64,000 bases of DNA, taken from assembly GCF_900095385.1 (NCBI RefSeq), contig NZ_FMID01000004.1, positions 62,001 through 126,000 on the forward strand. The letters are read 5' to 3'. Position 1 is the first letter of the stretch; each line of letters opens with the position of its first letter. The notes under the pieces are model-generated. The model was not told the origin of the DNA and ran no database searches. It was given only the letters and a program-made list of their open reading frames with translations. Made by a program: the position numbers and the translations under genes. Source of the stretch: Methanoculleus chikugoensis (GTDB lineage Archaea; Halobacteriota; Methanomicrobia; Methanomicrobiales; Methanoculleaceae). This document shows, one piece after another, positions 2,746 to 6,784 of the stretch.

Positions 2746-2925
2746 GTGCTGCACGGTCCGATCGGCACCGCATCTGCGAACCTCCATCCCATCCGGCTGC
2801 AGAAGGTTCCCGGCACCGCGCTACCGACCGACGAAGAGGCGGCCTCGCGGGTACTGCACACCGTACGGGAAGAGCGGCGGTCCGGTTATGCAGTGCGAGC
2901 AAGAGCGTTTCGGAACTCTGAAGGT
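2746..2925 (+). pseudogene. fmdB: C-terminal remnant of fmdB
   Basis: The reading frame from about 2791 to 2889 encodes IRLQKV...LPTDEE...V.EERRSGY. It matches the C-terminus of the complete FmdD-FmdB protein (IRMKKV...LPTDEE...VQERRQPY) at about 15 of 33 positions with no gap. The rest of the gene is absent: the stop of the hemerythrin gene lies immediately upstream. The remnant is followed by the same TATA-hairpin element that follows the intact gene at 5289. The simplest reading is a tandem duplication of fmdB plus its 3' flank, with the first copy mostly deleted. Confidence 0.6.
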
Positions 2926-3013
2926 TGGCAGGGAACGCTTCCAGACCCCGGCACCCTCCGGGGGCGGTTACCCCACGAACAAGTTAATCAAATACACTCA
3001 ACAAATGCATAAT

Positions 3014-3077
3014 GTTAAATAGTTTCGGCTTATATTGACAGTATGATGCCACCGCGCTTGCGGTGCATCATGAGATC
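3014..3077 (+). ncRNA. TATA-hairpin element, copy 1 (candidate small RNA or leader)
   Basis: GTTAAATA at 3014 lies 29 bases before a hairpin at 3043-3071. The stem is ATGATG-C-CACCGC paired with GCGGTG-CATCAT, with one bulged C and a four-base loop, and it is followed by GAGATC. The second copy at 5335-5400 has the same TATA-to-hairpin spacing within one base and about 30 of 35 identical bases over the hairpin and GAGATC. Its G-T replacement (ATGGTG against CATCAT) keeps pairing as an RNA wobble. The spacing fits transcription starting at or just before the hairpin. Function unknown. Confidence 0.5.
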
Positions 3078-3525
3078 GACGGAATGCGAGCGAGAAACTG
3101 GAATACCAGAGCACCATCTCCCGCTGTTGAGAGGCCGACGAAGTAACGATCGCGCCCTGAAGTTCTCTCCAAGCATCAACGTAATGAATCCACAGGGCAC
3201 CCGGGAGAAGATGAGGGAACGCACCGGGTAACACTGGGTAAACGCCACCCGGGTGCCTCTGAAGACGCCATGGAAGCCGGGCAGGATCGGCGTCGCCGGC
3301 CCTGCCCGACCAACTTTAACGCTGTTTTTGAAGAGATCCTGTGCGGGACCCGGGCTCTAACCGGCATCCGCATGCAGCATGCGGGCGGCGGACGGGCACG
3401 TGAACGCAACCGGACCTGCCCGGGTGCCGGTGGGCCGCGGCCCATAACCATCATGCCGTTACCATTACCGGAAAGTAAACATATTTTCATAACCCTTATC
3501 CGCGCGGAGGTCTGATTGAATTTCT
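3078..3525 (+). other. Intergenic region with two perfect long stems and the fmdDB promoter
   Basis: Two perfect inverted repeats are visible: GGCACCCGGG (3196-3205) with CCCGGGTGCC (3248-3257), and CGGGCAGG (3278-3285) with CCTGCCCG (3301-3308). Together with the hairpin at 3043 they suggest a structured transcript of roughly 270 bases. An AT-rich stretch around 3475-3492 (AAACATATTTTC) is the likely TATA region for the gene starting at 3526. I see no credible protein gene here. Confidence 0.4.
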
Positions 3526-5289
3526 ATGGACGTTCTCATCACGAGCGGGAGGACGATCGCCCAGGGCAGAAAACTCTACTACAAAGACATGCCCGCATAT
3601 TCCGATGAAACGGCACGCTGTTTCGTCAACCCGTTCGATCTCCTGGAACTCGGGGCCGCGGCAGGCGACTATCTTCTCCTCTCGACGGGCACGGGAGAAG
3701 AGGTGTTCAGCGCCACACCCTGCGACGATCTCGTCTCGGGAACCGTATTCATCCCCTGCGGGCCGCACGCAAATGCAATCCTGCACGCGACCACGCGGGG
3801 AACCGGTGCTCCGGATTACAAATGGCTGGAAGGGACGGTGACCCTGACCCGGAGGCCCCCGCGATCGGGCTGGGATATCCTCATCGAGGAAGGCGGTGCC
3901 GCATGCCCTCCGGTGCCGGCGCCCGTCGGCGGGGAAGACGGGGATCTCGTGACCATCCGCGACGTTGTCTGCCCGCTCTGCGGGTGCCTCTGCGACGACC
4001 TCGTCGTGAAGGTCGGGGGCGGGGCCGTCAGATCGGTCGATAACGCATGCTCGCTGGGCTCAGAGAAGTTCCTGTCGCAGAGCCGTCTCACGCACCCGAT
4101 CTCGAACGATGGAGGTGCCTGGAGAGCGATCGGCTTTCGGGAGGCGATCCGGCGTACCGTGGAGGTGCTCGCCGACGCCGAACGGCCGCTCCTTTTTGGG
4201 TGGAGCGGGACGTCCGCGGAGGCGCAGTGCATCGGCATCCATATCGCCGAAGCGATCGGGGGCGTCATCGACAACTGTTCGTCGATCTGCCACGGGCCGT
4301 CGATCATGGGCATCCAGGAGGCGGGCCACCCGGGATGCACGCTCGGTGCGGTGAAGAACCGGGCCGACGTCGTGATCTACTGGGGCTCGAACCCCATCGA
4401 GTCGCACCCGCGCCACCTCTCCCGGTATACGACGTTCGTCAACGGGAAGTACCGGGACAACGGGCACCACGACCGGACTCTCGTCGTCGTGGACATCAGG
4501 GAGACCGATACCGCGAAGATTGCCGACGAGTTCATACGGGTCAAGCCGGGCGCGGATTACGCCGTGTTTTCAGCGCTCCGGGCAATCCTCAGGGGTCACG
4601 CGGACATCCTTCCTGCAACCGTCGGAGGCGTCCCGCGGGAGAGGCTGATCTGGCTCGCCGACCTCTGCAGGAACACCCGGTTCGGGGCGCTCTTCACGGG
4701 GATAGGCCTGACGCAGTCTCCGGGCAGGTACAAAAACGTCAGGAACGCCATCCAGCTCGTCGACGAACTCAACCGGCATACGAAGTTCACCCTGACTCCC
4801 ATGCGGGGACACTGGAACGTCAACGGCACCAACCAGACGTTTTCGTACCTCACGGGCTACCCCTACGGCGTCGATTTCTCGCGCGGCACACCGTATTACA
4901 ACCCCGGCGAGACGACGGCGGTCGATCTGCTCCGCCGGGGCGAGGCCGATGCATGCCTCATCATCGGCGCCGACCCCGGGGCACACCTGCCGAGGAGGTG
5001 CAACGAGCACCTCGCGACGATCCCGACCATCGTCATCGATCCGTTCGTCTCGCTCAGCACCTCCTTTGCGGATCTCCATATCCCGGTCGCGTGCGTAGGC
5101 ATCGACTGCGAGGGAACGGGCTACCGGATGGACTCCGTCCCGATCCGGATGAAGAAGGTTCTCTCTTCGGGTCTCCCGACCGACGAGGAGGTGCTCTCAG
5201 AGATCCTCTCCCGGGTACAGGAGAGACGGCAACCTTACGGCGTAACCGTCCCGAAGACACCATCTTCAGAGGCGCCGCCGATAGCATGA
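3526..5289 (+). CDS. fmdB: Formylmethanofuran dehydrogenase, fused subunits D and B
   Basis: A 587-residue protein. Residues 1 to about 125 match subunit D (molybdopterin dinucleotide-binding domain; FVNPFDLLELG, GDYLLLST). Residues 145 onward match subunit B, the tungsten/molybdenum catalytic subunit that reduces CO2 with methanofuran in the first step of methanogenesis. The [4Fe-4S] ligands are in VCPLCGCLCDD (C149, C152, C156) with C175. The metal ligand is C255 in SICHGPS, encoded TGC, so it is the cysteine and not the selenocysteine form. D and B are usually separate genes; here they are one frame with a Pro/Gly-rich linker near residues 125-140. No fmdA, C, E or F gene is nearby. Confidence 0.93.
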   Translation: MDVLITSGRTIAQGRKLYYKDMPAYSDETARCFVNPFDLLELGAAAGDYLLLSTGTGEEVFSATPCDDLVSGTVFIPCGPHANAILHATTRGTGAPDYKWLEGTVTLTRRPPRSGWDILIEEGGAACPPVPAPVGGEDGDLVTIRDVVCPLCGCLCDDLVVKVGGGAVRSVDNACSLGSEKFLSQSRLTHPISNDGGAWRAIGFREAIRRTVEVLADAERPLLFGWSGTSAEAQCIGIHIAEAIGGVIDNCSSICHGPSIMGIQEAGHPGCTLGAVKNRADVVIYWGSNPIESHPRHLSRYTTFVNGKYRDNGHHDRTLVVVDIRETDTAKIADEFIRVKPGADYAVFSALRAILRGHADILPATVGGVPRERLIWLADLCRNTRFGALFTGIGLTQSPGRYKNVRNAIQLVDELNRHTKFTLTPMRGHWNVNGTNQTFSYLTGYPYGVDFSRGTPYYNPGETTAVDLLRRGEADACLIIGADPGAHLPRRCNEHLATIPTIVIDPFVSLSTSFADLHIPVACVGIDCEGTGYRMDSVPIRMKKVLSSGLPTDEEVLSEILSRVQERRQPYGVTVPKTPSSEAPPIA

Positions 5290-5334
5290 CGCGCGCCGCA
5301 CAAGTAAAGGTAAATAGTTCGACCCGGAACAAAA

Positions 5335-5400
5335 GTTAAATATGTAACACCGTCAACAGATAGAATGGTGCCACCGCAGTGGCGGCGCATCATTGAGATC
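5335..5400 (+). ncRNA. TATA-hairpin element, copy 2 (candidate small RNA)
   Basis: GTTAAATA at 5335 lies 30 bases before a hairpin at 5365-5393 (ATGGTG-C-CACCGC, AGTG loop, GCGGCG-CATCAT), then GAGATC. It starts 45 bases after the fmdDB stop. The spacer before it (from ACAAGT at 5300) has the same length, 35 bases, as the spacer before copy 1 (from 2979), with scattered identities. See copy 1 at 3014. Confidence 0.5.
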
Positions 5401-5640
5401 CAATTGTAAAAACCTCAATTCCATCAAACCAAACCGCGGAACACCGCGAACGCCGGGAACGGGGAAGAGCCCGACCGGGCATCGTGCCGGATGTCCCGGA
5501 AGGTGCTTCAACGGGGCGACAGGGATTCTTCCCGCTCTTCTCCACCCCTGGTTTTCGGTTTTGTGAATGGGGCCTTGTTGAGACCCCCTCAGGAGAAACA
5601 TCGACTGCGTCCCGGACACGGGTTCCGGGGGGACTGCACA
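5401..5640. other. Intergenic region, nothing recognised
   Basis: Between the hairpin element and the repeat block lie about 240 bases with no frame of convincing codon use. It includes short inverted repeats such as AACCGCGG/CCGCGAAC-type motifs, but no tRNA or known RNA signature. Confidence 0.3.
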
Positions 5641-5754
5641 CTTCGCACCTTCGGTGCTCACGCTCACTGTGTTCGCGCCTCGAAGCCTCACGGCTTTTCG
5701 TGCTCCGCTCCTATAGGAGCGTCGTTCTCCGGTGCTCCAGCTCCCACCCGTTGG
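5641..5754 (-). repeat. Hairpin-rich intergenic repeat, locus A
   Basis: Read on the minus strand this holds GGAGCACCGGAGAACGACG, then a small palindrome CTCC-TATA-GGAG, then CGGAGC and a GAGCACCGAAGGTGCGAAG unit. The same modules recur at 23797-24010 (minus) and 26703-26853 (plus). Modules share arms (GAGCACC/GGTGC, TCC/GGA) while loops vary, which suggests that structure is conserved. Confidence 0.6.
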
Positions 5755-5935
5755 CCGGTCGCATCACTATTGGGGGACCAGGGCATCAGACCGTGCATCT
5801 TATGCCGGACTGAGGGTCGATCGCAGATCATGCGCGCATCGCATCCGCGTAAAGTTAACATAATGAAGCCAACATTGTCGAAGAGTTACTGTCAACTTGT
5901 TAATACTTATCAGCCCATCCAGAGAATATTCCTAC

Positions 5936-6784
5936 ATGATAGGAGAGCAGCGCAAACTGAAATACAGGGTTAACTGGAGAGAGGCTCGGGAAGCGATCCT
6001 GAGCGAGAGGTTTAAAGGTCCGAAACTCCGTTTCGACCCCGATATAAAGACAAAAGCCGCCTCCGATTTCTCAAAAAGGGTCAAGGAAGGCGAATACGAG
6101 TACGGCAGGAAAACCGTGGAGATCTTCTCCGGCTTTCTCGACCCGTCTTCGGAGGTGCTTGAGATCGGACCCGGGCCGGGGACGGTGACCGTCCCGCTCG
6201 CAAAGCGGGTCAAAAAGATCACCGCCGTCGACCTTTCGCTGCGGAACATCGCTCATCTCGAGGAGAACCTGCGTGAAGAGTCCTGCGACAACGTCGAGGT
6301 GATCCATACGAACTGGCTGCGTACCGATGACGAGGCGTTGAAGGGCAGGTACGATCTGGTCTTCTGTTCGCACTTCCTCTGGATGATCCCGGATCTTGAG
6401 GAACACCTGAAAAAGATGGAGAACGCCTCCAGGAGATACTGTGCCATCGTGCAGCCCGCCGGAAGAGGCGATGTCGTCAAGGAAGTCTACACCCGGATTA
6501 CCGGCAGGGAGTACGGCGGGGAATTCGAACCCGACGGCGACTACTTTGCCTACGTCATCCTCAGGGAGTGGGGCAGGCTGCTCAACGTCACGCACTTCTC
6601 GTTCACCAATACGATGACCGTTGAAGAGAAAGTCCGTTCGACGGCGTCGTTTGTCGGCCGATTCGTCGAGGTTGACGAGGACGTGGCGGAGCGCATCCGG
6701 GAGTCGGTCCTCCCGCATGCCGATGAGAACGGCACGTTCGTCGAGACGAACAACGTGGTGGTGATGTGGTGGGAGGTGGCGTAA
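5936..6784 (+). CDS. Class I SAM-dependent methyltransferase
   Basis: A 282-residue protein with a Rossmann-type SAM-binding motif I, VLEIGPGPGTVTVPLA, an acidic strand-2 end (ITAVDLS), and motif IV region DLVFCSHFLWM. The substrate is not evident. Start chosen at ATG 5936 (MIGEQRK): an AT-rich TATA-like stretch around 5899-5910 (GTTAATACTTATC) would give a nearly leaderless transcript there. An upstream in-frame start at 5897 would fall inside the promoter. It is transcribed in the same direction as fmdDB but separated by 650 bases. Confidence 0.75.
   Translation: MIGEQRKLKYRVNWREAREAILSERFKGPKLRFDPDIKTKAASDFSKRVKEGEYEYGRKTVEIFSGFLDPSSEVLEIGPGPGTVTVPLAKRVKKITAVDLSLRNIAHLEENLREESCDNVEVIHTNWLRTDDEALKGRYDLVFCSHFLWMIPDLEEHLKKMENASRRYCAIVQPAGRGDVVKEVYTRITGREYGGEFEPDGDYFAYVILREWGRLLNVTHFSFTNTMTVEEKVRSTASFVGRFVEVDEDVAERIRESVLPHADENGTFVETNNVVVMWWEVA

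Follow-up and report, generated by a model that had tools for sequence, protein, structure and literature searches.

Two hairpins beside a fused formylmethanofuran dehydrogenase gene mark a candidate pair of structured small RNAs in Methanoculleus

What is the role of two nearly identical hairpins that stand behind an intact and a decayed copy of a methanogenesis gene in Methanoculleus chikugoensis? The window analysed here, a stretch of 64,000 nucleotides of this genome, carries the order hemerythrin, fmdB remnant, RNA A, fmdDB, RNA B, with A and B denoting the two hairpin-bearing units. We consider it likely that each hairpin forms the 5' end of a structured small noncoding RNA with a transcript of its own, the two RNAs being paralogues. 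They probably are trans-acting regulators, and their transcription, ends, action in trans and target we infer.

Layout of the locus

The first-pass annotation had described the same layout behind both gene copies, and its positions and spacings are exact: ACAAGT starts at 2979 and 5300, GTTAAATA at 3014 and 5335, and the hairpin at 3043 and 5365, with a start-to-start distance of 35 bases from ACAAGT to GTTAAATA in both copies and of 29 and 30 bases, respectively, from GTTAAATA to the hairpin. The near-identity of the two segments comprising hairpin and GAGATC is likewise borne out, and the genome holds just two segments of that pattern. The features of the locus are as follows.

2788-2895, plus strand: decayed C-terminal fmdB fragment, matching residues 539-573 of the fused protein (BLASTP, tblastn; G004 has a longer remnant at the corresponding site)
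2988-3021, plus strand: promoter of RNA A, comprising an upstream element and a TATA box, GTTAAATA (3014-3021), conserved across 34 copies
3041-3330, plus strand: RNA A, predicted (9-copy alignment, structure counts, conservation profile; ends placed by TATA spacing and the U-tract at 3325-3329)
3042-3072, plus strand: P1 hairpin of RNA A
3193-3261, plus strand: second helix of RNA A (arms ~3193-3205 and ~3247-3261)
3279-3307, plus strand: 3' terminal stem of RNA A (GGGCAGG/CCTGCCC)
3526-5289, plus strand: fused fmdD-fmdB gene (TIGR03129, E 1.5e-173; NF042908, E 1.1e-13)
5309-5342, plus strand: promoter of RNA B, AAAAGTTAAATA, TATA box 5335-5342, conserved across 34 copies
5363-5565, plus strand: RNA B, predicted (16-copy alignment; ends placed by TATA spacing and U-tracts)
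5364-5394, plus strand: P1 hairpin of RNA B
5393-5403, plus strand: conserved linker TTGAGATCCAA of RNA B, beginning at the P1 foot (class B alignment)
5461-5543, plus strand: long-range helix P2 of RNA B (arms 5461-5470 and 5534-5543)
5475-5499, plus strand: P3 hairpin of RNA B with invariant GUGCCG loop
5552-5562, plus strand: U-tracts, likely terminator of RNA B (sequence; conservation drop after 5575)

By its TIGR03129 match, the protein encoded between the hairpins is a fused formylmethanofuran dehydrogenase subunit D-B; besides the gene at 3526-5289, the genome has separate fmd/fwd copies at other places. The fmdB fragment before the first hairpin is real: in a single BLASTP comparison it is 47% identical to residues 539-582 of the fused protein (E 2e-8), and the close relative G004 has a longer remnant at that site, covering residues 508-569. 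Upstream lie two hemerythrin-domain proteins (1748-2197 and 2301-2738), the first of which resembles NCBIfam NF053874, the PA2171 ribosome-binding persister protein, with an E of 1.2e-19 and 70.6 bits against a cut-off of 190.

Promoter, structure and reading frames

Searches that started from the fused protein or from the DNA of either copy yielded loci carrying the element in Methanoculleus and in Methanomicrobiales bins; 34 copies were aligned overall, and the class B and class A alignments comprise 16 and nine copies, respectively. Across the 34, a TATA box is conserved at constant spacing before P1, and AAAGTTAAATA or a near variant precedes the hairpin. As TATA-to-start spacing in archaea usually places the transcript start at a fixed distance, this geometry predicts a start at or just before P1. 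ACAAGT, which had been counted as part of the layout, keeps its positions and spacing in the window but is not conserved in relatives, where the promoter AAAAGTTAAATA and the hairpin are conserved instead. Behind copy B, GAGATC is conserved (TTGAGATCCAA), whereas behind copy A its conservation does not reach beyond the closest species. The conserved units are much longer than the hairpin, about 200 nt for B and about 290 nt for A. Identity to relatives amounts to 91-97% in P1 and to about 40% past 5575, which equals the level of unrelated sequence; in the conservation profile, conservation stops at the U-tract.

In class B, P1 is followed by TTGAGATCCAA, the long-range stem P2, the P3 hairpin CCGGGCAUC-GUGCCG-GAUGUCCCGG and T-tracts, and in class A by a second long helix and a terminal stem, with TTTTT in the window. 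The two occur in direct tandem in several genomes (L007, L008, L009 and L047), and the P3 model of class B weakly detects class A at the same relative place (L047, E 4e-4; L043, 0.02; L046, 0.06; others, 0.2-1.4). RNAs A and B have the promoter and P1 in common, as well as a 3' domain whose similarity is only weakly recognisable, and so look like paralogues.

In P1, 84.6% of cells are paired across the 34 copies, and the covariation score exceeds that of all 500 shuffles, which ignore relatedness. Class A has 94.5% of cells paired, with 15 double-change cells versus 5.6 in shuffles, a value reached in none of 500, again with relatedness ignored, and its second helix shows compensatory changes in 7 of 11 pairs. 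Within a species, the two arms of P2 pair better with each other than with arms of other species (p 0.046), and the divergent copies L036 and L012 retain this helix despite a quite different sequence. P3 has 96.5% of cells paired and two compensatory pairs, and its GUGCCG loop is invariant in 24 copies. In the P1 pairing simulation on genomes without fmdDB, some clades have a different P1 register.

Could the hairpin instead be a DNA palindrome bound by a protein, that is, an operator by the TATA box? P1 is indeed near-palindromic and sits directly after the promoter. However, one of its arms has a one-base bulge, the conserved structure runs on for 200-290 bases with compensatory helices, and at the fourth pair of P1, 28 of the 34 copies have G-U, three A-U and three G-C, a wobble preference expected of a plus-strand RNA but not of a DNA palindrome. 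An operator is thus highly improbable. Even more remote is a leaderless small protein translated from an ATG inside P1. In 19 of the 34 copies such an ATG lies about 25 bases past the TATA box, and the window has a 62-codon frame from 3043, but the start is lost in nine of 34 (ATA, ACG, CTG, TGG and others) even with GTG and TTG counted as starts, several copies run into stops after 5 codons, and frame-shifting indels fall within the conserved segment, which carries compensatory changes. Among the 34 copies neither a start codon nor a reading frame is kept, and we have rejected a small protein for this reason.

Distribution in the genus and history of the cassette

A covariance model of promoter and P1 finds 35 sites in 25 of the 35 genomes of the genus and none in the 197 others of the order; a search at class level took in no genomes beyond the 232 already covered for the order. 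The P3 model agrees with the covariance model within the genus. Among cultured species, M. sediminis carries RNA B. Genomes contain one or two copies, with three in one fragmented MAG, and the element sits at the one hemerythrin/fmdDB locus wherever its context was read. Two kinds of match were set aside as chance: one in G018 (L038), which lies inside an apparent DNA-glycosylase gene, and the R2 matches outside the genus (G130, G152 and G166; E 0.002-0.03).

Fused fmdDB is present in 16 of the 25 RNA-bearing genomes, in one piece in 14 and split in two (G013 and G031), perhaps through assembly errors. In the remaining nine, the RNA has no intact fmdDB next to it: four retain remnants beside it (G009, G011, G017 and G019), G010 has an internal deletion, and in G002, G029, G030 and G035 no convincing fmdDB was found beside the RNA. 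None of the ten RNA-less genomes of the genus, some of which are incomplete, has the fused gene. Thus, among the 35, every genome with fused fmdDB carries the RNA, while the RNA often occurs without fmdDB. Absent from ten genomes, some of them incomplete, the RNA is not essential; in G003, G025 and G026 the hemerythrin gene leads directly to the 5S/rRNA operon, with no cassette. Homologues beside fmd genes, whose absence the first-pass annotation had named as evidence against its proposal, were hence found in related genomes. Fused proteins for which no credible RNA match was found occur in Methanocalculus (L013, L014 and L016), Methanothermococcus (L019) and Methanoculleus sp. FWC-SCC1 (L018).

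These patterns bear on two further explanations. A cis element that controls only the mRNA of the neighbouring fmdDB, as a structured 3' UTR or terminator (B) or as a 5' leader (A), would agree with the presence of the element in all genus genomes with fused fmdDB and with the position of B, always close behind that gene. However, the element has its own conserved TATA box and is kept in the nine genomes without intact fmdDB, the position of A relative to fmdDB, upstream or downstream, differs among genomes, and in many the gene has an upstream region of its own without A. An RNA that outlives fmdDB is probably more than a 3' UTR of that gene, and we regard control in cis alone as improbable. 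That the element is a neutral relic, or a mobile repeat moving together with the cassette, is very unlikely: patchiness in the genus and the two copies in some genomes would speak for it, but the single locus, the low copy number, the compensatory changes and the retained promoter do not. A phage origin was discarded, as no phage match was found. Both double compensations in P3 fall in lineages without intact fmdDB (G019 and G035; rows L035 and L037), which suggests that selection on the RNA continued after loss of the gene, though these changes could predate the loss.

How did the arrangement arise? Many species have the order hemerythrin, fmdDB, RNA B, and others fmdDB, RNA A, RNA B. Together with the order in the window, these fit a history in which fmdDB and its RNA were duplicated in tandem long ago and lineages then lost different parts. 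As tblastn found no fmdDB remnant separating A from B where the two stand in tandem, this history is not proved. Of the tandem duplication of fmdB and its 3' flank originally proposed, the decayed copy stands and the gene orders fit, with the duplication itself a plausible course of events.

Candidate function and comparison with known systems

The comparative evidence strongly supports the earlier suggestion of a functional small RNA with starts near 3043 and 5365, and a trans-acting regulatory pair is our best reading of it. Each RNA would have a BRE/TATA promoter of its own, with a start that coincides with P1 or lies just before it, and would probably end at a U-tract. P1 would shield the 5' end, the body being formed by P2 and P3 in B or by the second helix in A, and the conserved unpaired parts of B, the linker UUGAGAUCCAA and the P3 loop GUGCCG, may contact a partner RNA or protein. 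The proposed link to the first enzyme of methanogenesis is one of position only, given the nine genomes with the RNA but no intact neighbouring fmdDB and the fused gene without the RNA in Methanocalculus. Furthermore, the linker pairs with the start region of fmdDB no better than random, which led us to reject a target there, and an exact complement of the 11-base linker was found nowhere else in the genome.

More speculatively, and in our estimate improbably, the pair could be a genus-specific invention that originated together with a duplicate of a formylmethanofuran dehydrogenase gene and later became independent of that gene; it would now exert trans control over the remaining fmd/fwd isoenzymes or act in a dormancy response. 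In the former case, it would control the entry step of methanogenesis. The latter is prompted by the adjoining hemerythrin proteins, joined in several species by the rRNA operon; it is no more than a lead, drawn from the resemblance of the first hemerythrin protein to PA2171, a translation repressor in Pseudomonas (PMC13041383).

Which known systems does the pair resemble? No Rfam match at or above gathering score was found at this locus, dismissing a known Rfam RNA, and literature on Methanoculleus small RNAs and archaeal structured motifs, a scope excluding most subscription journals, held nothing on the element. Like known archaeal intergenic sRNAs, for example Haloferax sRNA132 (PMC6560208) and Methanosarcina mazei sRNA154 (named in PMC11549558), A and B are intergenic, non-coding, structured and confined to one lineage, with a predicted promoter of their own; the fixed distance of the TATA box from P1 in 34 copies and the lack of a conserved frame accord with this kind. 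Unlike sRNA132 and sRNA154, to which they are not known to be related in sequence, they are predicted RNAs and tandem paralogues around a metabolic gene. They would fit in as a putative new family of this kind. The archaeal SECIS element is found in 3' UTRs of fwdB/fmdB (PMC11881835), and our hairpin also comes after an fmdB-type gene, but it has its own promoter. As the genome has no tRNA-Sec above cut-off and the fused fmdDB no in-frame stop (TGA), a SECIS element is excluded. With a riboswitch or other cis leader the RNAs share a structured, promoter-proximal position. In contrast to such leaders, however, what follows them varies (methyltransferase, convergent rRNA operon, fmdDB or the second RNA), and the U-tract precedes any gene. 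Since no downstream gene is constant among the genomes compared, a riboswitch leader is unlikely.

The pair, previously uncatalogued and with predicted promoters of its own, constitutes a testable candidate family of regulatory RNAs in Methanoculleus, a common biogas methanogen, and comes with predicted ends and conserved contact sites. Its retention where the adjacent enzyme gene has decayed makes its role separable from that gene. Downstream of RNA B, a methyltransferase gene (5897-6784) lies between it and the rRNA operon, whereas several relatives have the 5S gene immediately behind RNA B. The intergenic region 5630-5760 contains the short inverted motifs CTTCGCACCTTCGGTGCTCACGCTCAC and GCTCCGCTCCTATAGGAGCG; stretches resembling it also occur after RNA B in L005 and L011, and may represent a dispersed repeat.
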